Positions 1,113 through 63,124 of a stretch of 64,000 nucleotides of DNA are shown piece after piece. The translations under genes and the position numbers were made by a program. The notes beneath the pieces are model-generated. The model ran no database searches, was not told the DNA's origin, and saw only the letters and a program-made list of their open reading frames with translations. Origin of the DNA: Limnomonas spitsbergensis (taxonomy: Eukaryota; Chlorophyta; Chlorophyceae; Chlamydomonadales); NCBI GenBank assembly GCA_037349105.1, contig JAYJMM010000116.1, positions 1,798,001 to 1,862,000 on the forward strand, in the 5' to 3' direction. Every line of letters begins with the position of its first letter. Position 1 is the first letter of the stretch.

Positions 1113-4100
1113 ATGGATTTGAATGTCCACGAGCTTTCAGCCTTCCCTCTTCGCACTCCAATTCAGGGTCACCTCGACTCCATGCTGGCTGAGCACACTG
1201 CTGGCGGCTGGGCTGAGGCATGCAGCTTCAAGTGCAAGAGCGGGGAAGTGGGTCAAAACTGAGTAACTCCAAACTGCAGCATTGAACCCTGAACCCTGAC
1301 CGAACCCCTTGAGGCAGGTCCAAGGAGGCAGCCTTAAACCCTGAACCCCCAATCTAAACCAGGGGAGAAAACACATGCAGTGGCAGAGCGGGTTTGCTTC
1401 TGATGTTGGTGGAGGTGTTCAGAAACACCGTGTACGGTGTGTGCCTCAGCTAAAGTTCAGCTACCGTTCAGCTACGTCACGGCCTACAGCCATGGGGGGG
1501 TGGTACGGCTGCTCTGTTGCTTGGGCCACCGACCGTAGGCCGTAATGTGCGGATCCCAACAGTCCTGAGGCGGGTGCCCATGGACGCGCCCTAGACAGTT
1601 TGGTGTGTACCGGACCATACCCTGGCTGCCAGGCTCTCCACAACATGGGACTTATCGGCATAGGCCTGGCTCAATGGCATGGGATGGCTAGCTCAGGGTG
1701 GCAGAGGTTGGCAGAGGCTGGCAGAGGCTAAAGCGTAGGCGCCCCAATGCTGTCCCTGGCTCCCTGCCCTTGCTCCCTCTTGGACAGGTCCTGATCATGT
1801 CAGGATAACCCCAGCAGCCCTATTGCCCCAATGCCCTAAAGCCCCAACGCCCCAATTCCCCAATGCCTTTAAGCCCCAATGCCCCAATGCCTCAATGCCT
1901 TCCCTGGCCCTTCTCCCCGCTTGGACAGATCCTTATCATGCCGGGGGGCCCGGGCGGCAAGGCCTCTAAACTCTTCCTAGGAGTGGAGCAAGTGGGCGAT
2001 ATCTGGGCCACGGCGGCTCTTGCAAAGCTGCCCCCAGGTGTGTGCTCTGACTGGCTGGCCCGACAGCAAGAAGCAGCCCTCATATGAGGAGGAGTGTCTA
2101 CACACCCATGTAGCATTTTTTACGAAAGGGCCAGGCTGAGCGGGTGGCGTCCTTAACAGGTGTAAGAAAGACGATAGAAAGAAAGCTACGCCCCGTGGGA
2201 GGCGTGACAGTTGAGGAAACAGCGCAGTCTGGGCCGAAGCCACATACCGCGCCGTTACCGCCAGGTCAAGCGGGTTAGCCTACTTGATAGGCGTATTATT
2301 TGCAAGGGAAACAATGTCGTGCAGTTGCGATGTGTGTTCCACTGTTGCAGCCCCCCCCTGTTGGCCAACTCCTTTTTGTTGGGTGCTCCATATGCCTGTG
2401 GTACAGGAACGTACGAGTTGCAGACGCCCGGCACGCCTTCACGCAAGCAGGCAGATAGTATGGCCCTGGGATTCCTCTTGGGATGCTACAGCTTCACACG
2501 GTGGGTGGGTGTGGATGTGTGGAATGCCACAGCTTCACACGGTGGGTGGGTGTGGATGTGTGGTATGCCACAGCTTCACACGGTGGGAGGGTGTGGATGT
2601 GTGCATTGCCATAGCTTCACACGGTGGGTGGGTGTGGATGTGTGCATTGCCACAGCTTCACACGGTGGGTGGGTGTGGATGTGTGGAATGCCACAGCTTC
2701 ACACGGTAGGTGGGTGTGGATGTGTGGAATGCCACAGCTTCACACGGTGGGAGGGTGTGGATGTGTGCATTGCCATAGCTTCACATGGTGGGTGGGTGTG
2801 GATGTGTGGTATGCCACAGCTTCACACGGTGGGAGGGTGTGGATGTGTGCATTGCCATAGCTTCACACGTTGGGTGGGTGTGGATGTGTGCATTGCCACA
2901 GCTTCACACGGTGGGTGGGTGTGGATGTGTGGAATGCCACAGCTTCACACGGTAGGTGGGTGTGGATGTGTGGAATGCCACAGCTTCACACGGTAGGTGG
3001 GTGTGGATGTGTGGAATGCCACAGTTTCACACGGTGGGTGGGTGTGGATGTGTGGAATGCCACAGCTTCACACGGTAGGTGGGTGTGGATGTGTGGGATG
3101 CCACAGTTTCACACGGTAGGTGGGTGTGGATGTGTGGAATGCCACAGCTTCACACGGTGGGAGGGTGTGGATGTGTGCATTGCCATAGCTTCACATGGTG
3201 GGTGGGTGTGGATGTGTGGTATGCCACAGCTTCACACGGTGGGAGGGTGTGGATGTGTGCATTGCCATAGCTTCACACGTTGGGTGGGTGTGGATGTGTG
3301 CATTGCCACAGCTTCACACGGTGGGTGGGTGTGGATGTGTGGAATGCCACAGCTTCACACGGTAGGTGGGTGTGGATGTGTGGAATGCCACAGCTTCACA
3401 CGGTAGGTGGGTGTGGATGTGTGGAATGCCACAGTTTCACACGGTGGGTGGGCGTGGATGTGTGGAATGCCACAGCTTCACACGGTAGGTGGGTGTGGAT
3501 GTGTGGGATGCCACAGTTTCACACGGTAGGTGGGTGTGGATGTGTGGAATGCCACAGCTTCACACGGAAGGTGGATGTGGATGTGTGGAATGCCACAGTT
3601 TCACACGGTAGGTGGGTGTGGATGTGTGGAATGCCACAGCTTCACACGGTGGGTGGGTGTGGAGGTGTGGAATTCCATAGCTTCACACCGTAGGTGGGTG
3701 TGGACAGTATCACACGATAGGTGGGTGTGGATGTGTGGGTTTGTGGGTGTGGATAAGCTGGTGATTGTCTGGGTGTGAGGTGGGTGTGAGCATGTGCCAC
3801 TTAGAGTGGGAAAAAGTGTATGATAAGTGGCTGGGTGCATGGGTGGGTGTAAGTTTAGCATGGCTGTGTATGTACCAATAGGTGCATTTTCTATCATGCC
3901 CTTGTCTTGCCCCACCCACATGTCCCCTTTCCCCGCCCTCCAGGTACAAGTCCAAGGGCAAGAGCCCTCCTTCCACGGAGCAAGAGCAGGACGGCTCTCA
4001 GCCTGTGCGCAAGCCCTGCCTGGTGTGGCCGCCAGGGGCTGACAGGTGAGGAACACAATTCTCCCGCCTTCGCAGACCGCGTTGGGTTGGGGATCGGTCG

Positions 4101-7100
4101 GTATGTGTCCCTCCACTCACCCGCATTCAGCCAGCATGTGTCGCTCCACTCACCCGCATCAAGCCTGTATGTGTCCCTCCACTCACCCGCATCAAGCCAG
4201 GATGTGTCCCTCCACTCACCCGCATCAAGCCATGATGTGTCCCTCCACTCACCCGCATCAAGCCAGGATGTGTCCCTCCACTCACCCGCATTAAGCCTGT
4301 ATGTGTCCCTCCACTCACCCGCATCCAGCCCGCATGTGTCCCTACACTCACCCGCATCAAGCCAGTATGTGTCCCTCCACTCACCCACATCAAGCCAGTA
4401 TGTGTCCCTCCACTCACCCACATCAAGCTAGCATATTGCCCTCCACTCACCCGCATCAAGCCAGTATGTGTCCCTCCACTCACCCGCATCAAGCCATTAT
4501 GTATCCATCCACTCACCCACATCAAGCCAGTATGCGTCCCTCCACTCACCCGCATCAAGCCAGGATGTGTCCCTCCACTCACCCACATCAAGCTAGCATA
4601 TTGCCCTCCACTCACCCGCATCAAGCCAGGATGTGTCCCTCCACTCACCCGCATCAAGCCAGTATGTATCCCTCCACTCACCCGCATCAAGCCAGTAAGT
4701 GTCCCTCCACTCGCCCGCATCCAGCCAGCATGTGTCCCTCCACTCACCCGCATCAAGCCAGCATGTGTCCCTCCACTCACCCGCATCCAGCCAGCATGTG
4801 TCCCTCCACTCACCCGCATTCAGCCAGCATGTGTCCCTCCACTCACCCGCATCAAGCCAGTATGTGTCCCTCCACTCACCCGCATCAAGCCAGCATGTGT
4901 CCCTCCACTCACCCGCATCCAGCCCGCATGTGTCCCTCCACTCACCCGCATCAAGCCAGGATGTGTCCCTCCACTCACCCACATCAAGCTAGCATATTGC
5001 CCTCCACTCACCCGCATCAAGCCAGGATGTTTCCCTCTACTCACCCACATCAAGCTAGCATATTGCCCTCCACTCACCCACATCAAGCTAGCATCTTGCC
5101 CTCCACTCACCCGCATCAAGCCAGTATGTGTCCCTCTATTCGCCCGCATCAGGCCAGTGCCCCCACCTTCATACCATGCTGGATTGGCCCGCATTGTCCA
5201 GCAGGGTGTGAGATGGACCCGCTCTCCTGGCTGTCTTGCTGCATGAGGAGTGCACAGTGGTGCACCGTGCGGGTAGCCCGGGCTGCTTGGCTGAGGCAGG
5301 GCCCTACATCATGGCCCTTTTCCCCTGGGCTCAGCGTTTCTTTAACCCTACACCAATTGCTCCCTGCCTCCCACTTGCCAGCAGCATTCCCCCCCCCCCT
5401 TCTCTTTATTTGTCCCTGCCAGCCCCTTGTCAGCATCATGTCCCCAGCCCCTCCCCCTTCCCCGCTACCCCTGCTCCCTGACTGCTCAGGTTATCGGTCC
5501 AGTCGCTGGCCGAGGCCACGTTCCTCACCCGCGACCTCATCACCACGCCCGCAGAGGACATGGGGCCCCAGCACCTGGTGGCGGAGGCGCAGGAGATGGC
5601 AGCTAGGCACCCGGGAGCTGATATCAGCATAATACAAGGAGATGAGCTGTTGGAACAGGTGGGGGGGGCAGGCCTGGTACCGGGTAGGGGGGTGGACTGG
5701 TGGGGGATATGGGGCAGTTGCACCTGGTGGCGGAGACGCAGGCAACGGCAGATAAGCAGCCGGGAGATGATATCTGTGCGATCCAGGGAGATGAGCTGCT
5801 GGAACAGGTGGGGGGGGGGCAGGCCTGATACTTAATAGGGAGACTAGTAGCTGGAAGAGGTAGAGGTGCAGGGTTGATACTTAATAGGGAGATGAGCTGC
5901 TGGAACAGGTGGGGGGGGCAGGGCTGGTGCTTGGTAGGGGTGTGAGCTGCTGGGAGAAGTAGGGGTTCAGGGTTGATACTTAATAGGGAGATGAGCTGTT
6001 GGAACAGGTGGGGGGGGCAGGGCTGGTGCTTGGTAGAGGTGTGAGCTGCTGGGAGAAGTAGGGGTTCAGGGTTGATACTTAATAGGGAGATGAGCTGTTG
6101 GAACAGGTAGCAGGCTTGGTACTGGGTAGGGGCGTGAGCTGATGGGGGATGTGATGCTGCTGCACTTGGTGGCAGTTGTGCAGGCGATATCAGCAGGGTG
6201 CTGGGGGGGACTGAGAGTGTTGTCACTTGTCAGTAGATGAGCTGTTCAGGGGGTGGGGTGAAGGGGTACAGTATGTATACAAATGTGTGGAGTGGGGTGA
6301 TAGGGTATAGGGTACGGGGTGGATACAAATGTGTGGTGTGGGGTGATAGGGTATAGGGTACAGGGTGTATACAAATGTGTGGAGTGGGGTGATAGGGTAT
6401 AGGGTGGATACACATGTGTGGGGTGATAGGGTATATGGTACGGGGTGGATACAAATGTGTGGGGTGATAGGGTATAGGGTGGATACACATGTGTGGTGTG
6501 GGGTGATAGGGTATAGGGTACAGGGTGGATACAAATGTGTGGTGTGGGGTGATAGGGTATAGGGTACAGGGTGGATACAAATGTGTGGAGTGGGGTGATA
6601 GGGTATAGGGTGGATACACATGTGTGGGGTGATAGGGTATATGGTACGGGGTGGATACAAATGTGTGGTGTGGGGTGATAGGGTATAGGGTACAGGGTGT
6701 ATACAAATGTGTGGAGTGGGGTGATAGGGTACGGGGTGGATACACATGTGTGGGGTGATAGGGTATAGGGTACAGGGTGGATACAAATGTGTGGGGTGAT
6801 AGGGTATAGGGTACGGGGTGGATACATATGTGTGGTGTGGGGTGATAGGGTATAGGGTACAGGGTGTATACAAATGTGTGGAGTGGGGTGATAGGGTACG
6901 GGGTGGATACACATATGTGGGGTGATAGGGTATAGGGTACAGGGTGGATACAAATGTGTGGTGTGGGGTGATAGGGTATAGGGTACAGGGTGGATACAAA
7001 TGTGTGGGGTGATAGGGTATATGGTACAGGGTGGATACAAATGTGTGGAGTGGGGTGAGAGGGTATAGGGTACAGGGTGCATACAAATGTGTGGTGTGGG

Positions 7101-10100
7101 GTGATAGGGCATATGGTATAGGGTGTATACAAATGTGTGGTGTGGGGTGATAGAGTATAGGGTACAGGGTGCATACAAATGTGTGGTGTGGGGTGATAGA
7201 GTATAGGGTACAGGGTGTATACAAATGTGTGGTGTGGGGTGATAGGGTATAGGGTACAGGGTGGATACAAATGTGTGGTGTGGGGTGATAGGGTATAGGG
7301 TACAGGGTGGATACAAATGTGTGGTGTGGGGTGATAGAGTATAGGGTACAGGGTGTATACAAATGTGTGGTGTAGGGTGATAGGGTATAGGGTACAGGGT
7401 GGATACAAATGTGTGGTGTGGGGTGATAGAGTATAGGGTACAGGGTGCATACAAATGTGTGGTGTGGGGTGATAGGGTATAGGGTACAGGGTGCATACAA
7501 ATGTGTGGTGTGGGGTGATAGGGTATAGGGTACAGGGTGCATACAAATGTGTGGTGTGGGGTGATAGGGTATAGGGTACAGGGTGGATACAAATGTGTGG
7601 TGTGATAGGGTATAGGGTACAGGGTGGATACAAATGTGTGGGGTGATAGGGTATAGAGTACAGGGTGTATACAAATGTGTGGTGTGGGGTGATAGGGTAT
7701 AGGGTACAGGGTGTATACAAATGTGTGGTGTGGGGTGATAGGGTATAGGGTACAGGGTGGATACAAATGTGTGGTGTGGGGTGATAGGGTATAGGGTACA
7801 GGGTGGATACAAATGTGTGGGGTGATAGGGTATAGGGTACAGGGTGGATACAAATGTGTGGGGTGATAGGGTATAGAGTACAGGGTGTATACAAATGTGT
7901 GGTGTGGGGTGATAGATTATAGGGTACAGGGTGCATACAAATGTGTGGTGTGGGGTGATAGGGTATAGGGTACAGGGTGGATACAAATGAGTGGAGTGGG
8001 GTGATAGTGTATAGGGTACAGGGTGGATACAGATGTGTGGTGTGGGGTGATAGGGTATAGGGTACATGGTGGATACAAATGTGTGGTGTGGGGTGATAGG
8101 GTATAGGGTACAGGGTGCATACAAATGTGTGGTGTGGGGTGATAGGGTATAGGGTACAGGGTGTATACAAATGTGTGGTGTGGGGTGATAGGGCATAGGG
8201 TATAGGGTGTATACAAATGTGTGGTGTGGGGTGATAGGGTATAGGGTACAGGGTGGATACAAATGTGTGGTGTGGGGTGATAGGGCATAGGGTATAGGGT
8301 GTATACAAATGTGTGGTGTGGGGTGATAGGGCATAGGGTATAGGGTGTATACAAATGTGTGGTGTGGGGTGATAGGGCATAGGGTATAGGGTGTATACAA
8401 ATGTGTGGTGTGGGGTGATAGGGTATAGGGTACATGGTGGATACAAATGTGTGGTGTGGGGTGATAGGGCATAGGGTATAGGGTGTATACAAATGTGTGG
8501 TGTGGGGTGATAGGGTATAGGGTACAGGGTGGATACAAATGTGTGGTGTGGGGTGATAGGGTATAGGGTATAGGGTGGATACAAATGTGTGGTGTGGGGT
8601 GATAGGGTATATGGTACATGGTGGATACAAATGTGTGGTGTGGGGTGATAGGGTATAGGGTACATGGTGGATACAAATGTGTGGTGTGGGGTGATAGGGT
8701 ATAGAGTACAGGGTGGATACAAATGTGTGGAGTGGGGTGATAGGGTATAGGGTGGATACACATGTGTGGGGTGATAGGGTATATGGTACGGGGTGGATAC
8801 AAATGTGTGGTGTGGGGTGATAGGGTATAGGGTACAGGGTGTATACAAATGTGTGGAGTGGGGTGATAGGGTATAGGGTGGATACACATGTGTGGGGTGA
8901 TAGGGTATAGGGTACGGGGTGGATACAAATGTGTGGTGTGGGGTGATAGGGTATAGGGTACAGGGTGTATACAAATGTGTGGAGTGGGGTGATAGGGTAT
9001 AGGGTGGATACACATGTGTGGGGTGATAGGGTATATGGTACGGGGTGGATACAAATGTGTGGGGTGATAGGGTATAGGGTGGATACACATGTGTGGTGTG
9101 GGGTGATAGGGTATAGGGTACAGGGTGGATACAAATGTGTGGTGTGGGGTGATAGGGTATAGGGTACAGGGTGGATACAAATGTGTGGAGTGGGGTGATA
9201 GGGTATAGGGTGGATACACATGTGTGGGGTGATAGGGTATATGGTACGGGGTGGATACAAATGTGTGGTGTGGGGTGATAGGGTATAGGGTACAGGGTGT
9301 ATACAAATGTGTGGAGTGGGGTGATAGGGTACGGGGTGGATACACATGTGTGGGGTGATAGGGTATAGGGTACAGGGTGGATACAAATGTGTGGGGTGAT
9401 AGGGTATAGGGTACGGGGTGGATACATATGTGTGGTGTGGGGTGATAGGGTATAGGGTACAGGGTGTATACAAATGTGTGGAGTGGGGTGATAGGGTACG
9501 GGGTGGATACACATATGTGGGGTGATAGGGTATAGGGTACAGGGTGGATACAAATGTGTGGTGTGGGGTGATAGGGTATAGGGTACAGGGTGGATACAAA
9601 TGTGTGGGGTGATAGGGTATATGGTACAGGGTGGATACAAATGTGTGGAGTGGGGTGAGAGGGTATAGGGTACAGGGTGCATACAAATGTGTGGTGTGGG
9701 GTGATAGGGCATATGGTATAGGGTGTATACAAATGTGTGGTGTGGGGTGATAGAGTATAGGGTACAGGGTGCATACAAATGTGTGGTGTGGGGTGATAGA
9801 GTATAGGGTACAGGGTGTATACAAATGTGTGGTGTGGGGTGATAGGGTATAGGGTACAGGGTGGATACAAATGTGTGGTGTGGGGTGATAGGGTATAGGG
9901 TACAGGGTGGATACAAATGTGTGGTGTGGGGTGATAGAGTATAGGGTACAGGGTGTATACAAATGTGTGGTGTAGGGTGATAGGGTATAGGGTACAGGGT
10001 GGATACAAATGTGTGGTGTGGGGTGATAGAGTATAGGGTACAGGGTGCATACAAATGTGTGGTGTGGGGTGATAGGGTATAGGGTACAGGGTGCATACAA

Positions 10101-13100
10101 ATGTGTGGTGTGGGGTGATAGGGTATAGGGTACAGGGTGCATACAAATGTGTGGTGTGGGGTGATAGGGTATAGGGTACAGGGTGGATACAAATGTGTGG
10201 TGTGATAGGGTATAGGGTACAGGGTGGATACAAATGTGTGGGGTGATAGGGTATAGAGTACAGGGTGTATACAAATGTGTGGTGTGGGGTGATAGGGTAT
10301 AGGGTACAGGGTGTATACAAATGTGTGGTGTGGGGTGATAGGGTATAGGGTACAGGGTGGATACAAATGTGTGGTGTGGGGTGATAGGGTATAGGGTACA
10401 GGGTGGATACAAATGTGTGGGGTGATAGGGTATAGGGTACAGGGTGGATACAAATGTGTGGGGTGATAGGGTATAGAGTACAGGGTGTATACAAATGTGT
10501 GGTGTGGGGTGATAGATTATAGGGTACAGGGTGCATACAAATGTGTGGTGTGGGGTGATAGGGTATAGGGTACAGGGTGGATACAAATGAGTGGAGTGGG
10601 GTGATAGTGTATAGGGTACAGGGTGGATACAGATGTGTGGTGTGGGGTGATAGGGTATAGGGTACATGGTGGATACAAATGTGTGGTGTGGGGTGATAGG
10701 TATAGGGTACAGGGTGCATACAAATGTGTGGTGTGGGGTGATAGGGTATAGGGTACAGGGTGTATACAAATGTGTGGTGTGGGGTGATAGGGCATAGGGT
10801 ATAGGGTGTATACAAATGTGTGGTGTGGGGTGATAGGGTATAGGGTACAGGGTGGATACAAATGTGTGGTGTGGGGTGATAGGGCATAGGGTATAGGGTG
10901 TATACAAATGTGTGGTGTGGGGTGATAGGGCATAGGGTATAGGGTGTATACAAATGTGTGGTGTGGGGTGATAGGGCATAGGGTATAGGGTGTATACAAA
11001 TGTGTGGTGTGGGGTGATAGGGTATAGGGTACATGGTGGATACAAATGTGTGGTGTGGGGTGATAGGGCATAGGGTATAGGGTGTATACAAATGTGTGGT
11101 GTGGGGTGATAGGGTATAGGGTACAGGGTGGATACAAATGTGTGGTGTGGGGTGATAGGGTATAGGGTATAGGGTGGATACAAATGTGTGGTGTGGGGTG
11201 ATAGGGTATATGGTACATGGTGGATACAAATGTGTGGTGTGGGGTGATAGGGTATAGGGTACATGGTGGATACAAATGTGTGGTGTGGGGTGATAGGGTA
11301 TAGAGTACAGGGTGGATACAAATGTGTGGAGTGGGGTGATAGGGTATAGGGTGGATACACATGTGTGGGGTGATAGGGTATATGGTACGGGGTGGATACA
11401 AATGTGTGGTGTGGGGTGATAGGGTATAGGGTACAGGGTGTATACAAATGTGTGGAGTGGGGTGATAGGGTACGGGGTGGATACACATGTGTGGGGTGAT
11501 AGGGTATAGGGTACAGGGTGGATACAAATGTGTGGGGTGATAGGGTATAGGGTACGGGGTGGATACATATGTGTGGTGTGGGGTGATAGGGTATAGGGTA
11601 CAGGGTGTATACAAATGTGTGGAGTGGGTTGATAGGGTATAGGGTACAGGGTGGATACAAATGTGTGGGGTGATAGGGTATAGGGTACGGGGTGGATACA
11701 TATGTGTGGTGTGGGGTGATAGGGTATAGGGTATAGGGTGTATACAAATGTGTGGTGTGGGGTGATAGGGTATAGGGTACAGGGTGGATACAAATGTGTG
11801 ATGTGGGGTGATAGGGTATAGGGTACAGGGTGCATACAAATGTGTGGTGTTGGGTGATAGGGTATATGGTACAGGGTGTATACAAATGTGTGGTGTGGGG
11901 TGATAGGGTATAGGGTACAGGGTGGATACAAATGTGTGGTGTTGGGTGATAGGGTATAGGGTACATGGTGCATACAAATGTGTGGTGTGGGGTGATAGGG
12001 TATAGGGTACAGGGTGGATACAAATGTGTGGTGTTGGGTGATAGGGTATATGGTACAGGGTGGATACAAATGTGTGGTGTGGGGTGATAGGGTATAGGGT
12101 ACAGGGTGTATACAAATGTGTGGTGTGGGGTGATAGGGTATAGGGTACAGGGTGGATACAAATGTGTGGTGTGGGGTGATAGGGTATAGGGTACAGGGTG
12201 CATACAAATGTGTGGTGTGGGGTGATAGGGTATAGGGTATAGGGTGGATACAAATGTGTGGTGTGGGGTGATAGGGTATAGGGTACATGGTGGATACAAA
12301 TGTGTGGTGTGGGGTGATAGGGTATAGGGTACAGGATGTATACAAATGTGTGGTGTGGGGTGATAGGGTATAGGGTACAGGGTGGATACAAATGTGTGGT
12401 GTGGGGTGATGGAGTATAGGGTACAGGGTGGATACAAATGTGTGGTGTAGGGTGATAGGGTATAGGGTACAGGGTGCATACAAATGTGTGGTGTGGGGTG
12501 ATAGGGTATAGGGTACAGGGTGGATACAAATGTGTGGTGTGGGGTGATGGAGTATAGGGTACAGGGTGGATACAAATGTGTGGTGTAGGGTGATAGGGTA
12601 TAGGGTACAGGGTGCATACAAATGTGTGGTGTGGGGTGATAGGGTATAGGGTACAGGGTGCATACAAATGTGTGGTGTGGGGTGATAGGGTATAGAGTAC
12701 AGGGTGTATACAAATGTGTGGGGTGATAGGGTATAGGGTACAGGGTGGATACAAATGTGTGGAGTGGGCTTGGCTGTTGGCCCCCGCTTGACTATTGTTG
12801 CTGCATTGTTTTACATTCAGAACTACCCAGCGATTCACACTGTGGGAAGGGCAAGCCATCGACCTCCAGCTCTCATCGAAATCAGGTGACCTCTAATGCC
12901 CTGCACTCTAGACCCTAGCCTGCAGCTGCACCCCTAGCGTGCAACTGTCATCAAAATCAGGTGACCTCTTTTGCCCTGGACCCTAACCCCTGGCCTGCAA
13001 CTACCCCCCTAGCCTGCAACTGTCATTGATATCAGGTGAACTCCTATGCCCTGAACTCTAACCCCTAGCCTGCAGCTGCACCCCTAACCTGCAACTGTCA

Positions 13101-16100
13101 TCGAAATCAGGTGAACTCGCATGCCCTGAACCCTTGACCCTAGCCTGCAACTGTCATTGATATCAGGTGAAGTCTTAAGCCCTGGACCCTGTGCAGTAAA
13201 CTTTTAACTCTACACCCTTCATCTCCCTCTTTCAATTGCATCCTCTATTGCAGGTGGAGCCCCCCCGGTGTGTCTTCCAGCACCCTCGAGCTGCCAGAGC
13301 TCTGCCTGGTGGGGAAGGGCGTGTGCTTTGACACCGGGGGTCTTGACATCAAGTCAGCGGCCGGGATGAGGCTGATGAAAAAGGTGGGTTGCTGGTATGT
13401 CCCTCGCCACCGTCAAGCATACCTGATGCTGTCTGCATCCGATAAATGGTACCGCAGCCAGGGGCAGGCCTCTGTGGCTTATTTCCCCAGCTCCTCATCA
13501 GCGTGGTTATGGTGTGGACATGCCCATGCTGCACTCCTTTTCCTGGACCCTCTGTCGCCCATGCGGAGTAAGAAAGTAAAACGTAGGTCAGGGCCAAGAG
13601 ATGGCCATTTACATTGCTGCCTCAGCAGCCGAGCCTCTGAGCACGGCCCAGAGCTGTTACAGCAGCTGTCATTGACTCAACTGCCTCTGCGGCCTCTCGC
13701 CTGTTCTCAGGGGCTCTCAATTGTGTCGATGCTCTGCTCTGCCTTTGCCTGTCTGAATCTCTCAAATGCATCCATTGATTGTTAATTTGTTATGCTGCTG
13801 TAGGTGCATGTGCGAGCCAGGTAACGCTGTGACTTCACAATTTAATTGTTTGGACGTCACAGGCTAGTCACCCCTCCCCCCTGCAGGACATGGGTGGTGC
13901 TGCGCTCATGCTTGCCCTAAGCCACGTCATCATGACAATGGGGCTGCCGGTCCGGTTGAGGCTGCTCGTCCCCACTGTGGAGAACAGCATCAGTGGCAAC
14001 GCCTACAGGTGGGTGCGGGTTTAGGTTAAGGGTTTAGCGTTGCGCCATAGCTGAGGACGGCCAGGCCTCAGGGGGAGTGCTACCAGCCACTGGGATGGAC
14101 TGAAACAGCTTGAAGCAGCTTTGTTGCGCATGGCTGCTCAATGTTTGATCATCACGTGGTTTGTGTGTGCATGTTGTTGCAGCGAGTGTGATTGAAGTGT
14201 TTTGTACGCTTGCTTAACCCTGGGAGGGCAGTTTCCTCACATTCCTCTGGGAAGGCGCAGGTTGGACTTTGCAGTCCCTTGCATTCCCCACCAACAAGCG
14301 TGGAAGCTTACCGCCCGGCTTGCCCTGCCCCGCTCTCAGCACTGCCGCTACCCCCGTCTGCTGCCGTCCCCGACTCTTGTGACACCCTGACCAGCTGCCG
14401 GTATCGCAATCCTCGTTATGAGGTTGCTAAAGATATGTGTGTATCTCGTGTAAAGAGCCCCGCCTCGCTCTAAACTGTCTGTGTCTCCATGATCTCTCTG
14501 TTATCATTCCACACGATCCATGTCATACCAAGGCGTCCCTTAGTACGTCTTGTACAGCCTTAGAACCAAGTAGCATGGAACGCTACAGCCGGCGTCCCCC
14601 CTTCTTGCTGCAGGCTTTAGGGTTTAGGGTTTAAGCCGGCGTCCTCCCTCCTTGCTGCAGGCCCCTGGATGTGTTGCAGACCCGAGCGGGCATCACCGTG
14701 GAGAACAGGAACACCGATGCCGAGGGCCGCCTGATCCTGTGTGATGCGCTGACAAGGGGCGCTGCCTCCAACCCGGACTTGATCATCGACGCGGCAACGC
14801 TGACGGGGGCGGCCAGGTAACTAGGCCGTAGTGTGGGGGAATAGTGTGGAGGGGTAGCCGGGTACCAGGAGGCAGGAGGGGCAGCCAGTTATCAAGTCAA
14901 GAATAGAGTTGAGAATGGGGTAGAGGGGGTGGAGAGAGCTGATGTTGATTTGTCACTGAGGATAAAGAAGAGAGACAGTTAACGGTGATTTCTCACGCCT
15001 CCTGCTTCGGCATAGGAAAAGTCTTTCTTTCTTTCTCGTGATTTATGTGATGACTCTCCACACCCTGACCTCCTTCCCCTCTGTCCTCATTAATGACCAG
15101 CTGTACTCCTAGCTGATGGCCTGTGTGTGCCGTTTGAAATTCAAAACTGGCATACAAGTTGTAGTTGGGAAAAGCCAGATATTCGACCAGCTGTACTCGG
15201 AGCTGATGGCCTGTGTGTGCCGTTTGAAATTCAAAACTGGCATACGAGTTGTAGTTGGGAAAAGCCAGATATTCGACCAGCTGTACTCCGAGCTGATGGC
15301 CTGTGTGTGCCGTTTGAAATTCAAAACTGGCATAAAAGGAGAAGTTGGGAAAAGCCAGATATTCGACCAGCTGTACTCCTAGCTGATGGCCTGTGTGTGC
15401 CATTGAAATTCAAAACTGGCATAAGAGAAGAAGTTGGGAAAAGCCAGATATTCGACCAGCTGTACTCTGAGCTGATGGCCTAGCTGGCCTGTGTGTGCCA
15501 TGGTTGTCCTGTGTGTGATGGCCTATCTGATGGCCTGTGCGTGATGTGTGATGGCCTGTGCGTGATGTGTGATGGCCTGTGCGTGATGTGTGATGGCCTG
15601 TGCATGATGTGTGATGGCCTGTGCGTAATGTGTGATGGCCTGTGCATGATGTGTGATGGCCTGTGCGTGATGTGTGATGGCCTGTGCGTGATGTGTGATG
15701 GCCTGTGCATGATGTGTGATGGCCTGTGCGTGATGTGTGATGGCCTGTGCATGATGTGTGATGGCCTGTGCGTGATGTGTGATGGCCTGTGCATGATGTG
15801 TGATGGCCTGTGCGTGATGTGTGATGGCCTGTGCGTGATGTGTGATGGCCTGTGCATGATGTGTGATGGCCTGTGCGTGATGTGTGATGGCCTGTGCGTG
15901 ATGTGTGATGGCCTGTGCATGATGTGTGATGGCCTGTGCATGATGTGTGATGGCCTGTGCATGATGTGTGATGGCCTGTGCGTGATGTGTGATGGCCTGT
16001 GCATGATGTGTGATGGCCTGTGCGTGATGTGTGATGGCCTGTGCATGATGTGTGATGGCCTGTGCATGATGTGAGATGGCCTGTGCATGATGTGTGATGG

Positions 16101-19100
16101 CCTGTGCGTGATGTGTGATGGCCTGTGCATGATGTGTGATGGCCTGTGCATGATGTGTGATGGCCTGTGCATGATGTGTGATGGCCTGTGCATCATGTGT
16201 GATGGCCTGTGCATGATGTGTGATGGCCTGTGCGTGATGTGTGATGGCCTGTGCATGATGTGTGATGGCCTGTGCGTGATGTGTGATGGCCTGTGCATGA
16301 TGTGCGATGGCCTGTGCATGATGTGTGATGGCCTGTGCATGATGTGTGATGGCTTGTGCATGATGTGTGATGGCCTGTGCATGATGTGTGATGGCCTGTG
16401 CGTGATGTGTGATGGCCTGTGCATGATGTGTGATGGCCTGTGCATGATGTGTGATGGCCTGTGCATGATGTGTGATAGCCTGTGCGTGATGTGTGATGGC
16501 CTGTGCATGATGTGTGATGGCCTGTGCATGACGTGTGATGGCCTGTGCATGATGTGTGATGGCCTGTGCGTGATGTGTGATGGCCTGTGTGTGATGTGTG
16601 ATGGCCTGTGTGTGATGTGTGATGGCCTGTGCATGATGTGTGATGGCCTGTGCATGATGTGTGATGGCCTCTGCATGATGTGTGATGGCCTCTGCATGAT
16701 GTGTGATGGCCTGTGCGTGACGTGTGATGGCCTGTGCGTGATGTGTGATGGCCTGTGTGTGATGTGTGATGGCCTGTGCGTGATGTGTGATGGCCTGTGC
16801 GTGATGTGTGATGGCCTGTGCATGATGTGTGATGGCCTGTGCGTGATGTGTGATGGCCTGTGCGAGTGTGTGATGACCTGTGCATGATGTGTGATGGCCT
16901 GTGTGTGATGTGTGATGGCCTGTGTGTGATGTGTGATGGCCTGTGCATGATGTGTGATGGCCTATGCGTGATGTGTGATGGCCTGTGCATGATGTGTGAT
17001 GGCCTGTGCGTGATGTGTGATGGCCTGTGCGAGTGTGTGATGACCTAGCTTTACTCCTAGCTGATGGCCTGTGTGTGTCATTCTTGTGTTGTCCCTCCCA
17101 GGGCTGCACTGGGGCCTGAGGTGCCGGCGGTATTCAGCAGCTGCGATGCGGTGTGGAGAGAGCTGGAGACGGCGGCGACGGAAGAGGTACGGGGGAGGGT
17201 CTGGGTTAGGGTTAGGGTTAGGGTTGGGACGTGATCTGTGGTAGGCCGCTGAACCCCGTGAGCCTGCCTGTACGGGGCTGTACTGCCTGGGCCTGAGGTA
17301 CAGCTACCGTGGGGGTACAGCCTACAATACACAGGGTTAGGGTTTGGACGTGGTTTGGGTGATCTGTGGTTGGGCTTGTCTGTGAGGGGTGTGGATGGCA
17401 ATGAGAAAGGATGGGGAGGTCCTCTGGGGACTGAGTTGAAAGAAGGAAAGTAAACTATGCCCCGCATGGGGGTGAGGGCTAAGGAAACAGCGCGGCATGG
17501 GCCTAGGCCGCGTCCGCGCCGTTGCAAGGACTGAGGGGACTTGATTGGGAGCCACTTATTCGGCTGCAGCATGCCGTGCTTTGGCTACTGTCGGCTAATG
17601 CGGTGTGTGGCTGGGCCCCCTGGGCCCCCCTAAGTCCCCAGGGCGCCAGAGCCCCCTCATCCAGGTCTCTCTGGCTGGTTTGAGTGATCTGTGGTTGGGC
17701 TTGCCTGTGAGGGGTTTCGACTGGCAATGCAAACGTATGAGATGGATATTCTGGGGACTGGCTTGACTGCAATGGGAGCCAGCATCCTCACCCAGCTCTC
17801 ACTGCATGTGCAAGTTATTTATGGTGCTGCCATGTGCAGGATGAGATGTTGTGGCGGTTGCCACTGTGGAAGGGATACCGCAAGCATCTGGAATCAAAGG
17901 TGGGGAGGCAGGCGCTCTGATATACTGTACTTTCACATGTTTCTGATATGTACCGGTGTCCCCAAAAAAGAAAGACTGCTCCTCCGCCGAAGCAGGAGAT
18001 GTGGGACCGCTCGACCCACAGCAGTTATATCCTAAGTTGGATAGCCCGCTCAAAACATTCTGCGGGGTGCATTTAAGGAAGCACCAGACGTTTTCCACGC
18101 TTACACCTGGAATACGGTATGAAAGGAACTTTGGCAGGGTTCGAGCCGCCCGAATGTTTCTTTAATACGTACCTCACGTATGAATCTGACGTCTCCTTTG
18201 TGTCTGCCCCCCTCTCTCCCCTCTGTATACTTACCCCTGGGTGTTACAGGTTGCTGATATCGGCTCCACAGGGGGAGAGGGCACCCCGGGGGCCATTATG
18301 GCGGCTCTGTACCTACAGGAGTTCGTCAAGGATGTTCCCAGGTGAGACAGGCATTGTACTTTGGAAAGAGTGTGTATTACAGGGGGAGGGAGGCACTATT
18401 CAAGAATGAAAGAAAGAAAGCTATGAGAGGCATTGGAATGTGGAAGGAGTGTGTATCACAGTCGAGGGAGGCACTGCCCAAGAATGGAAAAAAGAAGGCT
18501 ACGAGAGGCATTGGACTCTTGGAGGAGTGTGTACAGTTGAGCGAGGCACTGGGCAAGAAAGGAAGAAAGAAAAAAGCTACGAGAGGCATTGGAATTTGGA
18601 ATTCTGAGTGTGTACAGTTGAGCGAGGCACTGGGCAGGGGTGTATCCCATTAAGGATGTAGGCGTGTTGTGCACTGGGCTGTGGGTCCAAGAGTGAAAAG
18701 AAAGAAAACTACGTCCCGCAGGGGCGTGAGGGTTAAGGAAACAGCGCGGCATGGGCCTAGGCCGTGTCCGCGCTGTTACCATACTGTGCGTCCAATTCAG
18801 TCCACCGTTGGCACCTTCAGGAGTTTGTCAAGGACTTGCCCAGATGATAGAGGCACTGGGGAGGGCATTTTCTCAGTGGGATGAAAGATGCATGCACGGG
18901 GGTATGCCGTATGCGTCACTGGGGTATGTGTAGCTCGGGTGGGCGTTCCATTTTAAGAAATTGTGCTCTGGTTGGTTGCTCACTCTAGCCCGGTGTATTG
19001 CCATCTTGGAGGATCCTCCAGATCTTGATCCAGAGGGATCCAGATCTATATCTTGGTGGTTCCCTGGACACAAAAGGCAAGATATAGCTGCCCTGCCCCT

Positions 19101-21780: not shown

Positions 21781-21832
21781 AGCCCGTCTCTGATTGACTG
21801 CGGAGATTAAAAATGTACGGTGGTCATATGGC

Positions 21833-22300: not shown

Positions 22301-22423
22301 TCAATCAGAAACGAGCTGTTAATATCCAGCAAGACGCAGTTCTCTTTCACTGTCATACTTGTCATAAAATACCCGCCTCCAGTGTTTTCGAACTGGGGGG
22401 AATGTCTTGTGTTATTTTTGCTT

Positions 22424-22449: not shown

Positions 22450-22535
22450 CCTCAGCCGCGACATTTCGTGCACGTTGAGGAGTTTGAGCTAAATCACATG
22501 AGCTCAAACTGTGCGTCCTGCCGAACCCCGCCCCT

Positions 22536-23446: not shown

Positions 23447-52412
<28,966 letters not shown>

Positions 52413-54974: not shown

Positions 54975-57146
54975 GGCCTCGTGGGGCTGGTAGGGAATGA
55001 CTAGGCTCAATTCCAGCTAGCATGCACAACCTGGGCCATGGTGCAGACATTCCATCCTCCTATGTGAGGGGGCAGGAACATTGAACCCGGCGTTCCAGGC
55101 GGGGGGAGAGAGAAGATCATGTGGCGTGCGGGTTCGATCCCTCAACCTCTGGGTATGGTTGCCACCAGCGTTATACCTCTGGACAATTTCCGCCCCCTAG
55201 CTAGACTAGTAAACTCTGCTGAAGTCCTGGAACTCAGGCAAATGCTTGCTCACAGGGAACGGGTCAGTGGGTAAGTAGGATATGTGTTTATAATCACTCA
55301 CATTAAGTATTCTCAGTGTAACGTCGTTGACCTAAAGTCTTCTCAGACTTAAACAGGTCTGCTGACACTTGAACCTGTATGAAATCTAGGGATGTTTGTT
55401 AACCTGGGGTGATCTTGTGCAGCGAGTGAGACCATAAGTCCTAGTGATTTAGTGGCCGATGGCCTCATGCTCACAGCGGGCTTTTTGGTGAAGAAAATTA
55501 TCTTGGGGCTGAGTACCACGATAAGGGTTGTCAAGTGTAGCCTTAAAACGATGGGCTGTGATGGTGGGGTCCGTGGAATCAAACCAGTGCTTGAGTTTTA
55601 GAAGCATAGCTGGGCATATTGGGGGGTCGGAATTACGCTTGTCTCGGATCGCTCAGGAGATATTCACTTGTTTCATGGATTGCCAAGCGAGGGGGGGGGC
55701 GAAAAAACAAATAAGGGACTCCATCCCCCCTAATTCTCCAAAACTCATCCGTTTGACAATTGACAAAGGAGTTGCACCTCAGGACTTTTGGGAGGGTATC
55801 TCGGCATTAAGAAAATCAAACGTTTATTTTTAGGGACTTGGACCCCCCTCCTAGTTTGACATGCGTTGCCTGGATACTTAACGTCGACCGTTGACCATGC
55901 ATAGGGGGGCATTCGGAAGCCCTGGCCCTACCCTGTGCAGTGAGATCTTCATATCATGCAGTTTTCTCGGGGCTGAGATGTTGTTCGCAAAATAAGCTTT
56001 TGTGAAATCTAAGAAATCCTAATTGTTTGGCTCTCTGTACCTCAGTCACCGTTGGGCAAAAAAGCATTTTACGACCAGATATGGAAAGCTCTCGTCAATC
56101 TCCCTACTTGTCGAGGATGGGGTGTTTTAGTTGTTTTTTGCCCCCCTTCGTCGCCAATAATTGTTTACTGTAGATTTACTCCGATTTTCCCACACTACAT
56201 ATGTGTTTAACCTTCTATTGATAAGGGTACGATTATAAGACTTTTGCTCGCCAGCAAAAAGGCAAGCACCTCATCATTATCAATCTACCAGTAAGTTCGT
56301 TAATACAAAACCAAAACTAAAGAGCGATCATCAAACCAATACGCGTGGCACAATCCTATGTCAAGACAATGTGAACAGATGTAAGTACGGGTACGTAACC
56401 CTTGCAACTTCTCTACCATTCCATTGACATTTAACACCACAGATTCGAACCTTGATATGGACCCTCAGAGCACTCAAGAGTCGAGCTCAAAGGTGACTAC
56501 CTAAACCACGGAAAAAAGCTTGATGGTGACTTCCTAAAGTACCGGAAAAAACTCGAAGGTGACTACCTAAACCACAAAAAAACCCTACTGATCACGTCAT
56601 CACTAAGGGTCACCCACAGGAACACGACTTTTGTTCAGGAAAACAGGAATTTAGGTACAGCTCGGGAATACAGGTCATTATAACGAAATAATGAAGGTAC
56701 TGATCAGGAAAACAAGTATACTGATCATGTACAAAACCACTGATCAGGAAAACAAGTACTGGTATACTGATCATGAACACAAGTACAGATCATGAAAAGA
56801 TCACTGCATCGCGCACATGTGTACATCTCCTGATCGGCGGGACATCGCCTCATGCTCAGAAGGCCCCACTCGTCACCTCTGGGGGAGAGCACGTATGGCA
56901 AAGCCACAACACATCTACAACTTTCACGTCAAGTTTCTCAAGTCCGGGGGGTCAGATTCAATATAAGATTCCCACAATCCCTTTATCGAAGTTAGCGACG
57001 CGAGAAAAGCCTGGCTTGGCCGTGGTTCCGCCATGCATTGAACAGCCACGGATGGTATGGAACCACGACCTGGAGATCAACAACATCGACCCCCCCTGGT
57101 ACAGCTTGAGGGCTGTTGCTGCCCCCCCCCCCCTTCGATTGCATCT
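54975..57146. other. AT-richer intergenic region with small repeats
   Basis: No gene recognised. AGCTAGACTAGT occurs at about 54924 and 55199. GGTGACTACCTAAACCAC-type repeats (three copies) lie at 56487-56586. An ACTGATCAGGAAAACAAGTA repeat (two copies) lies at 56699-56790. The last 100 bases are probably the 3' UTR of the minus-strand gene. Confidence 0.45.
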
Positions 57147-60100: not shown

Positions 60101-63100
60101 GCAAATACCCAGCTGCAAATACCCAGCTGCAAATACCCAGCTGCAAATACCCAGCTGCAAATACCCAGCTGCGAATACCCAGCTGCAAATACCCAGCTGC
60201 AAATACCCAGCTGCAAATACCCAGCTGCAAATACCCAGCTGCAAATACCCAGCTGCAAATACCCAGCTGCAAATACCCAGCTGCAAATACCCAGCTGCAA
60301 ATACCCAGCTGCAAATACCCAGCTGCAAATACCCAGCTGCGAATACCCAGCTGCGAATACCCAGCTGCAAATACCCAGCTGCAAATACCCAGCTGCAAAT
60401 ACACAGCTGCAAATACCCAGCTGCAAATACCCAGCTGCAAATACCCAGCTGCAAATACCCAGCTGCGAATACCCAGCTGCAAATACCCAGCTGCAAATAC
60501 CCAGCTGCAAATACCCAGCTGCAAATACCCAGCTGCAAATACCCAGCTGCAAATACCCAGCTGCAAATACCCAGCTGCAAATACCCAGCTGCAAATACCC
60601 AGCTGCAAATACCCAGCTGCAAATACCCAGCTGCAAATACCCAGCTGCAAATACCCAGCTGCAAATACCCAGCTGCAAATACCCAGCTGCAAATACCCAG
60701 CTGCAAATACCCAGCTGCAAATACCCAGCTGCAAATACCCAGCTGCAAATACCCAGCTGCAAATACCCAGCTGCAAATACCCAGCTGCGAATACCCAGCT
60801 GCAAATACCCAGCTGCAAATACCCAGCTGCAAATACCCAGCTGCATGTACTTGTAGGGGGTGCCGTGTTACAGAAGGGGGCTGGCAAGAATCCACCCATC
60901 CACCATTCAGAGTCTGGATGTCCAATCCGCAAACTTCGTAAAGACATTCAAATAACTCGCGTGATGTGACAACCTCGAGTGCACATTTGCCCCCCGCCCC
61001 CTTCAGACCCCTGCCTGTCCCGTCTGCTCTGCCTCCTGATCATCCTCCCACTAGTCCCTCCCCACCTCACTCCTGCTCCTGCACCCACTCGCCCCCTTCA
61101 GGCCCCTGCCCCACCTGCTCTGCCTCCTGCCCATCCTCCCAAATGATCTTCTTCACCCCACTCCTGCTCCAGCTCCCACTTTCCCCTCACGTCCATCAGA
61201 CCCCTGCCCCACCTGCTCTGCCTCCTGCCCACCCTCCCATTTGAACTTCCTACCCCAACTCCTGCTCCTGCTCCTAATCGCCCCCCGCCCCCTTCAGGCC
61301 CCTGCCCCACCTGCTCTGCCTCCTGATCATGCTCCCACTGGTGCCTCTCTGCCACCCGAGCATTCTGGTCAGCCAGCATGACCAGTCCGGCCCTGACTTT
61401 GTCCCAGGTGTTCCGCAGGGCCTGGCGGCGCAAGTTTTCAAACCTCAGGTACTGTCTCAACAGGTGCCATCTGAGCAAGACATGGGCCATGGGGTGAGAG
61501 GTTAGTGGAGGGTGACTTGGAGCTTTTGGGGGAGGGGGGGGCCATGGACTGCAATCTGAGCAAGACACGGGCCATGGGGTGAGAGGTTAGTGGAGGGTGG
61601 CTTGGAGCTTTTGGGGGAAGGGGGGGGCCATGGACTGCCATCTGAGCAAGACATGGGTCATGGTGTGAGAGGTTAGTGGAGGGTGGCTTGGAGCTTTTGG
61701 GGGAAGGGGGGGGCCATGGACTGCCATCTGAGCAAGACATGGGCCATGGGGTGAGAGGTTAGTGGAGGGTGGCTTGGAGCTTTTGGGGGAAGGGGGGGGC
61801 CATGGACTGCCATCTGAGCAAGACATGGGCCATGGGGTGAAAGGTTAGTGGAGGGTGGCTTGGAGCTTTTGGGGGAAGGGGGGGGCATGGACTGCCATCT
61901 GAGCAAGACATGGGCCATGGGGTGAAAGGTTAGTGGAGGGTGGCTTGGAGCTTTTGGGGGAAGGGGGGGGCCATGGACTGCCATCTGAGCAAGACATGGG
62001 CCATGGGGTGAAAGGTTAGTGGAGGGTGGCTTGGAGCTTTTGGGGGAAGGGGGGGCCATGGACTGCCATCTGAGCAAGACATGGGCCATGGTGTGAGAGG
62101 TTAGTGGAGGGTGGCTTGGAGCTTTTGGGGGAAGGGGGGGGCCATGGACTGCCATCTGAGCAAGACATGGGCCATGGGGTGAAAGGTTAGTGGAGGGTGG
62201 CTTGGAGCTTTTGGGGGAAGGGGGGGGCCATGGACTGCCATCTGAGCAAGACATGGGCCATGGGGTGAAAGGTTAGTGGAGGGTGGCTTGGAGCTTTTGG
62301 GGGAAGGGGGGGCCATGGACTGCCATCTGAGCAAGACATGGGCCATGGGGTGAAAGGTTAGTGGAGGGTGGCTTGGAGCTTTTGGGGGAAGGGGGGGCCA
62401 TGGACTGCCATCTGAGCAAGACATGGGCCATGGGGTGAGAGGTTAGTGGAGGGTGGCTTGGAGCTTTTGGGGGAAGGGGGGGGCCATGGACTGCCATCTG
62501 AGCAAGACATGGGCCATGGGGTGAAAGGTTAGTGGAGGGTGGCTTGGAGCTTTTGGGGGAGGGGGGGGCCATGGACTGCCATCTGAGCAAGACACGGGCA
62601 ATGGGGTGGAAGGTTAGTGGAGGGTGGCTTGGAGCTTTTGGGGGAAGGGGGGGCCATGGACTGCCATCTGAGCAAGACACGGGCATTGGGGTGAAAGGTT
62701 AGTGGAGGGTGGCTTGGAGCTTTTGGGGGAAGGGGGGGCCATGGACTGCCATCTGAGCAAGACATGGGCCATGGGGTGAGAGGTTAGTGGAGGGTGGCTT
62801 GGAGCTTTTGGGGGAAGGGGGGGCCATGGACTGCCATCTGAGCAAGACACGGGCCATGGTGTGAGAGGTTAGTGGAGGGTGGCTTGGAGCTTTTGGGGGA
62901 CGCTCCACTACACCCCCGCAATGAAGACTGTATTAAACCCAGCCCCCCCTGATTTATGGTAGCTCACCTACTGCTACGGCCAAACGGGTGGCTTCCTTAA
63001 TCCACGCCTCAGACGCATCGTGTATTTATTTATTTACACCCAGGCCCCACCCACCCACCGGTACACAGCCATAGGGGTGGTCTTGGCCCGGGAAATCAAA

Positions 63101-63124
63101 GGGCTGAGCCCTGCCGTGCTTTGC
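57147..63124 (-). CDS. Unidentified gene, three 3' exons, 5' end outside the window
   Basis: Minus-strand exons: 63124-63059, 61470-61311 and 58325-57147 (TAG). Phases match at both junctions (CG|A gives Arg; CAG|ACT is phase 0). The middle exon encodes a charged, probably helical segment (RQYLRFENLRRQALRNTWDK, then DQNARVAERHQWEHDQEAEQ). The last exon (392 residues) is low-complexity: poly-Gln followed by EEGEEGEDLF, Gly/Ala-rich runs, then a better-conserved-looking end (PTEVIRREVEGVKGLVSLWE). No family was recognised. The 66-nt exon is the weakest part; its donor CCG|GTGGGTGGG and pyrimidine tract are good, but the opposite strand is also open there. Exons are embedded in splice-junction repeats on both sides. 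Confidence 0.55.
58328..59330 (-). repeat. Irregular GT/GA-rich array before the last exon of gene 3
   Basis: On the transcript strand it reads CCTCACCACACACCTC-type repeats that run directly into the acceptor CACCGTGCAG. It is C-rich on the transcript strand. Frames open through it on the minus strand (Thr/His/Pro-rich) are artefacts continuous with the real exon. Confidence 0.88.
59536..60845. repeat. 14-bp minisatellite (CAGCTGCAAATACC)
   Basis: About 93 nearly identical copies; almost the only variant is GCGAAT for GCAAAT. The homogeneity suggests recent expansion. It lies in the middle of the intron of gene 3. All six-frame readings are artefacts. Confidence 0.96.
60999..61330 (-). repeat. 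Donor-spanning repeats of gene 3
   Basis: On the minus strand the middle exon ends GATCAGGAGGCAGAGCAG and the intron begins GTGGGGCAGGGGCCTGAAGG. Further copies of GGAGGCAGAGCAGGTGGGGC follow near 61218 and 61120. A diverged one at about 61030 reads GAGGCAGAGCAGACGGGACA. Exon tail plus donor are therefore tandemly repeated into the intron. Confidence 0.92.
61465..62900 (-). repeat. 85/86-bp minisatellite spanning the acceptor of gene 3's middle exon
   Basis: About 17 copies. On the minus strand every unit contains CCATGTCTTGCTCAGATGGC, which is the true acceptor (..GCTCAG at 61471) plus the first bases of the exon (ATGGCA). Units also hold a long C-tract (CCCCCCCTTCCCCCAAAAGC). Frames read through the array are artefacts. 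Confidence 0.95.
62955..63003. repeat. Second locus of the SINE-like 3' segment
   Basis: GGTAGCTCACCTACTGCTAC, GGCCAAACGGGTGGCTTCCT and TAATCC match the 3' part of the element at 50990-51265. No A or B box is visible nearby, so this is a truncated copy or an unrelated sharing of that tail. Confidence 0.45.

Follow-up and report, generated by a model that had tools for sequence, protein, structure and literature searches.

Tandem repeats that span intron-exon boundaries have been described in amphioxus (lancelets), where they were reported as single-gene cases and named mirages (PMC3087553). These minisatellites were found in Adh3, globin, PGBD5 and other genes with repeat units of 10-160 bp, and regular splicing was undisturbed as judged by RT-PCR; the reports also describe length polymorphism, somatic instability, and concerted evolution within the array, from which the terminal copies are excepted (PMC3087553, PMC3902484). 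Intron gain by tandem duplication has been reported for a potato RdRp case (PMC4974935).

We examined a stretch of 64,000 nt from the green alga Limnomonas spitsbergensis (GCA_037349105.1, contig JAYJMM010000116.1, 1,798,001-1,862,000 of the forward strand), which is referred to as the window. It was noted that tandem repeats make up 63% of the window compared to 14% of a contiguous 200 kb on the same contig, and the window is extreme for repeat load. The original prediction proposed that exon-intron boundaries as such are the target of a duplicating process, for which no named system was known; on this last point the amphioxus repeats across intron-exon boundaries provide a name (PMC3087553).

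Junction copies in the window

To count as a junction copy, an ungapped block had to score 13 or more and to extend 6 bp or more to each side of the junction. In the window set, protein frame placed 18 introns, and aligned homologues also placed 16 of them. The first gene and its copies are as follows.

307..19373, plus strand: leucyl aminopeptidase (M17) gene, 14 exons and 13 introns (Pfam PF00883, 5e-100; homologues; frame)
1745..1803, plus strand: copy of acceptor 1928 plus the head of the following exon, whose first base is 1929 (offset -141; 22 intron and 12 exon bp; 82%)
2479..3704, plus strand: 41-bp x 30 array, first copy being the tail and donor of exon 2407-2500 (TRF; donor 2500 with copy score 72, 30 copies and 22 exon bp)
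5717..6110, plus strand: copies of the tail and donor of exon 5490-5658 accompanied by a 49/99-bp array (TRF; donor 5658 with 21 exon bp by the block measure and 4 further copies, none inside 6264-12768)
12873..13153, plus strand: 75-bp array with the tail (23 bp) and donor of exon 12821-12885 (TRF; 23 exon bp in the copy of donor 12885)
14586..14660, plus strand: second copy of the acceptor of exon 14661, extending no more than 2-4 bases into exon sequence (offset -47; 27 intron bp)
18812..18842, plus strand: one diverged copy of the 31-bp tail of exon 18250-18341, GT lost (offset 502; 80%; 31 exon bp in the copy of donor 18341)

The aminopeptidase frame is closed from ATG through stop, and the 12 junctions after the first sit where the alignment to 7 homologues of 57-66% identity is free of gaps; P0020, one of the seven, starts only downstream of the first of these 12. 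The alignment query still used the exon start of 1113 from the original prediction, which was wrong, as the exon begins at 1167. The first intron is a putative one, placed by frame and by visible likeness to homologue N-termini. The second gene lies downstream on the same strand.

23447..52412, plus strand: gametolysin-type M11 metalloprotease gene with a proline-rich C-terminal part, 6 exons and 5 introns (Pfam PF05548, 6e-20)
23537..23572, plus strand: 18-bp tandem duplication over the donor of the first exon, last base 23546 (offset 18; 94%; 10 exon bp in copy)
25123..30968, plus strand: 10-bp x 595 array, rich in G, from the donor of exon 24404-25125 onward (TRF)
31606..32855, plus strand: 40-bp x 31 array with acceptor 32845 and the head (10 bp) of exon 32846 (TRF; 30 copies; 10 exon bp in copy)
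50068..50146, plus strand: duplicated acceptor 50146 and 12-bp head of exon 50147 (offset -67; 12 exon bp in copy)
50311..50582, plus strand: 100-bp array from the donor of exon 50147-50312, with at most 9 exon bp (TRF; 9 exon bp in the copy of donor 50312)

Four of the five M11 junctions fall in gap-free alignment stretches with homologues P0121 and P0122, and the signal-peptide junction is a candidate placed by frame only. Donor 25125 was scored as a junction copy and is missing from the original list; the junction content of its array (6 exon bp) is doubtful, being low-complexity and G-rich. Acceptor 34428 appeared by eye to have a diverged duplicate, for which copy scoring gave no support.

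Two further arrays belong to a putative gene on the opposite strand. Its putative exon is an open 160-bp stretch bounded by AG and GT, with 61311 as its last base; neither a Pfam family nor a homologue was found for it, and it was not counted as a verified gene.

60995..61337, minus strand: array with exon-tail-like sequence and donor (27 exon bp; 94%)
61465..62900, minus strand: 85-bp x 17 array with AG and 6 bp of the putative exon (TRF)

Across the two verified genes, 10/36 junctions and 9/18 introns have a junction copy in their own intron, comprising 7 donors (2500, 5658, 12885, 18341, 23546, 25125, 50312) and 3 acceptors (1928, 32845, 50146). The earlier estimate of about half of the introns was a fair one. 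Of the 12 sites then listed, nine are junction copies as defined here (1745, 2485, 5717, 12866, 18812, 23541, 31604, 50066, 50308); 14586 has only 2-4 exon bases, and 60999 and 61465 show copies in the unverified gene. Of the three unrelated genes in the original claim, the aminopeptidase and the metalloprotease are verified, and the opposite-strand gene, which is without domain or homologue, counts as unverified.

Several large intronic arrays of the window carry no junction copy.

4103..5157, plus strand: 33-bp x 32 array (TRF)
6264..12768, plus strand: 46-bp x 147 array, 6.5 kb (TRF)
15095..17046, plus strand: 90-bp and 21-bp arrays (TRF)
34903..50043, plus strand: 33-bp and 32-bp arrays, 15 kb (TRF)

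The largest, 35881-50043 (14.2 kb) and 6264-12768, are without a copy of either junction of their own intron; they are among five large stretches of intronic arrays in the window that lack a junction copy. Of the 41 junction cases, 31 have only one or two extra copies. The proposal that junction duplication usually seeds the long arrays is not supported.

Prevalence of junction copies at other loci

Two blind samples were assembled beyond the window. With permissive settings, ab initio gene finding across the entire window returned many false exons, so homology was used for the main sample and the predictor for the second only. For the main sample, 89 dynein heavy-chain matches were grouped by us into 16 loci, 14 of which were analysed. 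From 62 neighbouring exon pairs, 5 were dropped for having no valid GT-AG join and 4 for a profile gap above 10 or a length below 60 bp, leaving 53 introns placed by homology. The second sample comprised 46 introns of two other genes, with junctions taken from gene predictions; we discarded two 21-bp exons from it, as well as one join where an exon seemed to be missing. With the settings chosen, 10/18 donors and 13/18 acceptors of the window genes were recovered by the predictor in a set of 14 introns called, and these genes had also supplied part of its training.

Junction copies were encountered at 31/106 dynein junctions (14/53 donors and 17/53 acceptors) in 26/53 introns, and at 14/92 predicted junctions in 13/46 introns of the second sample, so that the phenomenon is widespread beyond the window, as had been expected. 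Together, 45/198 junctions and 39/99 introns of the blind samples carry copies. The rate is not uniform, at 0.31 of dynein junctions compared to 0.16 in the second sample. Swapped-intron controls, which cover both samples, gave 12/1258 matches for dynein (about 1 expected among 106 junctions) and 0/723 for the second sample, and junction copies are far above chance. These are the counts for junction words; for interior points the swaps gave 15/1560, and introns of different genes do not share sequence in the way introners do.

The copies are tandem in structure. Head-to-tail homology over the whole unit was detected in 26/31 dynein cases (z > 3) and not shown in 5/31, and the nearest copy lies at an offset of 18-216 bp in 39/41 junction cases. 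Introns with copies are longer than those without (median 617 bp vs 372 bp; p = 5e-4).

Junctions compared with intron interiors

The high frequency of copies (31/106 dynein and 10/36 window junctions) might suggest a dedicated process, involving for example splicing, R-loops or exon-junction sequence, that duplicates boundaries and seeds minisatellites. We consider such targeting quite unlikely, because interior intron points are covered about as often as junctions or more often. In 95 introns (50/53 dynein and 45/46 predicted, those below 200 bp being excluded), coverage was 0.24 at junctions and 0.27 at interior points, a difference of -0.03. The 95% CI of -0.10 to 0.04 is compatible with junctions being covered up to about 10 points less, or about 4 points more, than interiors; no junction preference was detected in these two blind samples. 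The corresponding values were 0.31 and 0.33 for dynein alone, and 0.28 and 0.48 for the window alone.

Along the dynein profile, a fraction of 0.29 was covered at the junction itself, and intron points as far as 120 bp inside gave 0.26-0.39; on the exon side coverage dropped to 0.14 by 40 bp and to 0.03 by 60 bp, and had reached 0 by 100 bp. The blocks themselves reach about equally into exon and intron (medians of 29 bp and 18 bp, 45 blocks; Wilcoxon p = 0.68), which together with the lack of junction copies in the longest window arrays also argues against targeting. The earlier proposal of a process acting on boundaries as such is therefore not upheld. A copy within 600 bp was found for 74/208 intron interiors and 2/39 exon midpoints, and for 102/600 random points of the contiguous 200 kb compared to 1/600 in a Markov control.

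Divergence of the copies and age of the introns

Junction duplications leave competing splice-site copies within introns, as originally stated, and it may be asked whether some of these decoys are functional alternative sites under selection. Among the best copies (score of at least 15), GT is kept in 14/18 and AG in 19/20; the acceptor AG matches at 39/40 bases compared to 246/280 for its neighbours, a slightly better retention that could reflect some selection, and 28/41 decoys exceed the 10th percentile of the scores of real sites. However, retention of the donor GT does not surpass that of the adjacent bases (31/36 vs 210/252 base matches), and detecting a copy already demands similarity at the site. 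Offsets show no bias towards multiples of 3 (13/41). The exonic part of the copies diverges near-neutrally, with mismatches of 10.7% at first, 9.6% at second and 21.5% at third codon positions; divergence of about 10% at the first two positions speaks against function, and the pattern is as would be expected for a free decoy beside a real exon changing at silent sites. We regard it as unlikely that some decoys are functional.

It could also be that the introns themselves were born when an exon segment with a splice-like site was duplicated in tandem (the Rogers/AGGT or a mirage-based model). Intron gain by tandem duplication is on record (PMC4974935) and such a model was put forward for amphioxus (PMC3087553). 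At AAA_6 position 156, however, 10 dynein loci share an intron and only 6/10 carry copies, so that intron is older than its copies. Copies also lie mostly at one end, with both ends copied in only 5/26 dynein introns. The intron-gain reading is contradicted at this single shared position, and we regard it as very unlikely.

Telomere-like sequence was seen between the acceptor copies at 14602-14660 and inside the repeat units at 50079-50146 and 50311-50582. This would fit double-strand breaks near junctions being repaired with telomere-like filler and their flanks duplicated, as in interstitial telomeric repeats. The three places are striking by eye but not above random intron segments, as the exact telomere 7-mer occurs in 5/41 nearest units compared to 3.5 expected, and 134/500 random draws reach 5. 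Such filler may explain single cases; as a general cause it is disfavoured and highly improbable.

Discussion

The simplest account, and in our judgment a probable one, is a junction-blind tandem duplication that is tolerated in introns, overruns their borders and rarely expands into minisatellites. Stretches of about 50-200 bp would be duplicated in tandem at a high rate all over introns, blind to splice junctions. Where a duplication straddles a junction, the outer junction (the donor furthest 5' or the acceptor furthest 3') would survive intact. A correct mRNA then remains possible, and the extra copy would drift as neutral intron sequence containing a decoy. Duplications wholly within an exon would usually be removed by selection. 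Most events would stop at one or two extra copies and a few would grow into minisatellites via copy-number turnover. The mutational step may involve fill-in during the repair of breaks or nicks, or else template switching; Vaughn and Bennetzen (2014) and Schiml (2016) reportedly described small tandem duplications from the repair of staggered breaks or adjacent nicks. The evidence base of this account is one organism.

The outer (terminal) copy is probably the junction actually spliced. The original prediction had said as much, and the claim follows from protein homology rather than from transcripts. A stronger statement is possible, though we hold it only tentatively and lean against it: that duplication is so frequent that nearly a quarter of junctions (45/198) own a decoy twin in the same intron, that these twins are not significantly depleted relative to interiors, that the spliceosome must choose the outermost site as a rule, and that the amphioxus mirages are the same overrun. 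Such a rule would be needed because, at acceptors, taking the first site encountered would select the decoy. If true, outermost choice at both ends would amount to exon definition or some comparable mechanism.

Studies of splice-site choice usually rely on engineered duplicates. The alga supplies numerous naturally occurring pairs of similar donors or acceptors in competition, with known spacing and graded divergence, and a tally of twin usage would be a direct test of whether position or strength decides the choice; RNA-seq and full-length transcripts have been reported for an assembly that is probably the same (PMC11228838). The decoy twins are also a warning for gene predictors, as the one used here built two apparently spurious 21-bp exons out of junction copies. 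A junction-blind overrun would in addition give mirages a simple general explanation.

Compared with the mirages as reported, the algal copies are similar in that the repeat unit spans the exon-intron boundary (10/36 window and 31/106 dynein junctions), that both 5' and 3' boundaries are hit (14 donors, 17 acceptors), that unit length varies (nearest offsets of 18-216 bp in 39/41), and that many copies keep GT or AG with the outer junction being the real one, in the alga by protein homology. They differ in belonging to a green alga, in affecting 39/99 introns of two blind samples compared to the single genes reported in amphioxus, in consisting mostly of one or two diverged extra copies, and in having been compared with intron interiors, where no junction preference was seen. 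As in the potato RdRp case, the duplicated segment holds splice signals; in contrast to it, none of the algal cases shows a new intron, and the copy sits in an intron that is older at one shared dynein position. Repair of staggered breaks or adjacent nicks also yields short tandem duplications and is a plausible mutational source for the alga, although the studies described are at the mutation level and in other organisms (PMC8355091). As with introners (PMC9860276), many introns of one genome are affected; introners are dispersed copies, but those of the alga are local. What is new is the green alga, the prevalence of junction copies and the evidence against targeting, with the mirages as the named precedent.

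Duplicated splice junctions in the window

The window (1798001-1862000 of contig C116) was examined within a searched genome of 260,226,709 bases in 124 contigs. Both of its plus-strand genes, a leucyl aminopeptidase and an M11 metalloprotease, were rebuilt using reading frame and homology; the closest named homologue of the aminopeptidase in the homologue search came from Chlamydomonas eustigma. Each exon-intron junction was then scored for ungapped copies within its own intron, requiring 6 or more bases on either side of the junction. A copy was found at 10 of 36 junctions and in 9 of 18 introns, in agreement with the original prediction that about half of the introns carry one. By this measure, the exonic part of the copies spanned 6-31 bp, although inspection of the sequence at site 5717 showed a likeness to the exon extending visibly farther back than the ungapped measure. 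One of the ten junctions, the donor at 25125, is of low complexity and doubtful. Nine of the 12 sites listed originally lie in the verified genes and were recovered by the same scoring; one further site shares only 2-4 exon bases, and two fall in an unconfirmed, putative minus-strand gene. On the minus strand, 57160-58330 holds an open reading frame (about 380 aa) with a high Ala, Gly and Gln content; it gave neither a Pfam family nor a homologue once joined to putative upstream exons.

Prevalence beyond the window

Tandem repeats make up 63% of the window compared to 14% of a 200-kb stretch from another part of the contig, and further introns were therefore selected without regard to repeats. 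For the first sample, an AAA_6 domain search returned 89 exon matches, which we grouped into 16 dynein heavy-chain loci; 14 were analyzed, with exon joins selected by GT-AG borders, frame and fit to the dynein consensus. Among the 53 introns, 31 of 106 junctions (14 donors and 17 acceptors) had a copy in their own intron, affecting 26 introns and 11 of the 14 loci. The same junctions swapped against other introns matched in 12 of 1258 trials, or about one expected for 106 junctions. The second sample comprised two genes with introns predicted ab initio in the blind 200 kb, one with HECT-domain pieces and the other a SMUBP-2-like helicase by Pfam. Copies were found at 14 of 92 junctions and in 13 of 46 of these predicted introns (swaps 0/723). 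Junction copies are thus a real and common feature, and their proposed occurrence beyond the window was borne out. Within the same 200 kb, three open reading frames on both strands (near 3.8, 13.8 and 29.7 kb) shared a motif around LPVTEVLALVDAAYEQARLDA, possibly representing a gene family or a mobile-element reading frame.

Duplication probably without regard to the junction

The original prediction proposed a process that targets exon-intron boundaries. No junction preference was detected relative to random interior points of the introns in either sample or in the window. Local copies occurred at 137 of 400 interior points of the dynein introns versus the 31 of 106 junctions (interior swap background 15/1560), and at 67 of 360 versus 14 of 92 in the second sample. 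Across the 95 introns of 200 bp or more from both blind samples, junction minus interior was -0.03 (CI -0.10 to 0.04), and in the window junctions were covered less than interiors (0.28 vs 0.48). Dynein coverage was roughly flat along the intron and faded in the exon, from 0.29 at the junction to 0.21 at 20 bp, 0.14 at 40 bp, 0.03 at 60 bp and 0 at 100 bp, while the duplicated blocks had similar reach on both sides. Taken together, these results therefore give no indication that duplication responds to the junction, and targeting is not upheld. Local copies were roughly twice as frequent in introns as at random positions in the 200 kb (74/208 vs 102/600). They were nearly absent from exon midpoints (2 of 39), which is what selection against duplications inside coding sequence would produce.

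Neighbouring whole units in the dynein introns aligned head to tail in 26 of 31 cases, and the events are therefore tandem duplications. Junction copies are best explained by short tandem duplication that is blind to the junction. Among 41 pooled junctions (31 dynein and 10 window), 22 had one extra copy, nine had two and five had at least 11 (11, 30, 30, 54 and 98, the last a low-complexity donor). Identity of the dynein copies to the real junction ranged from 72% to 95%, a spread that speaks for an ongoing process and against an assembly artefact.

Long arrays and telomere-like sequence

Junction duplication had also been proposed to seed the minisatellites. As a general rule this fails, since five array stretches in the window, including those of 14.2 kb and 6.5 kb, carry no copy of the donor or acceptor junction of the intron in which they lie. 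Telomere-like filler between copies was considered as a cause and showed no enrichment.

Plant-type CCCTAAA telomere repeats were found at the start of contig C1. Genome-wide, interstitial telomere-like sequence was dispersed on many contigs, with 104 exact matches to a 23-base degenerate telomeric word and 0 for the reversed control. Telomere-like words were strand-biased in the 53 dynein introns (sense CCCTAAAC 21 times vs GTTTAGGG 4 times; 25 and 18 in the 200 kb). With a wider motif set in dynein and window introns, sense copies lay closer to the acceptor (median 248 vs 639 bp). A branch-point-like CTAAAC, or removal of TTTAG|G because it would mimic an acceptor, could account for these patterns.

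Fate of the copies and splice-site choice

Over their exon-derived bases, the dynein copies mismatched the real exon at 10.7% of first, 9.6% of second and 21.5% of third codon positions, as would be expected of an unconstrained copy next to an exon under constraint. The best copies kept GT in 14 of 18 cases and AG in 19 of 20; GT was conserved no better than its neighbouring bases and AG slightly better. It was noted that 28 of 41 decoys outscore the weakest tenth of real sites. For dinucleotides and scores alike, similar cores are favoured by the detection itself. Junctions show no clear deficit, which suggests a low cost of decoys; from this we infer that the outermost splice site is selected at both intron ends.

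Introns with copies were longer (median 617 vs 372 bp). The intron at AAA_6 position 156 occurs in 10 dynein loci, with junction copies in six and none in four; here at least, copies were added to an older intron. In the HECT-like gene (72.9-73.7 kb of the joined 200 kb), a 156-bp array duplicates the acceptor and exon head, and the ab initio predictor called two of its copies 21-bp exons, showing that gene annotation can be misled by copies of this kind.

Comparison with known systems

Among the matches listed for the open-licence literature, no titles or abstract openings described algal junction-spanning repeats, nor are they mentioned in the abstract, passages and first part of the results of the Limnomonas spitsbergensis genome paper (PMC11228838). 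The finding is of value for the prevalence of the copies, for the case it makes against targeting, and as a source of natural twin splice sites that compete with each other. Tandem duplication is a known route of intron gain, according to an excerpt of PMC4974935. The original prediction pointed to no named system of this kind; however, excerpts of two papers describe amphioxus tandem repeats that run over exon-intron boundaries, termed mirages (PMC3087553, PMC3902484). They provide a named precedent, and in amphioxus, as described in the excerpt of PMC3087553, and the green alga alike, tandem repeats cross exon-intron boundaries.
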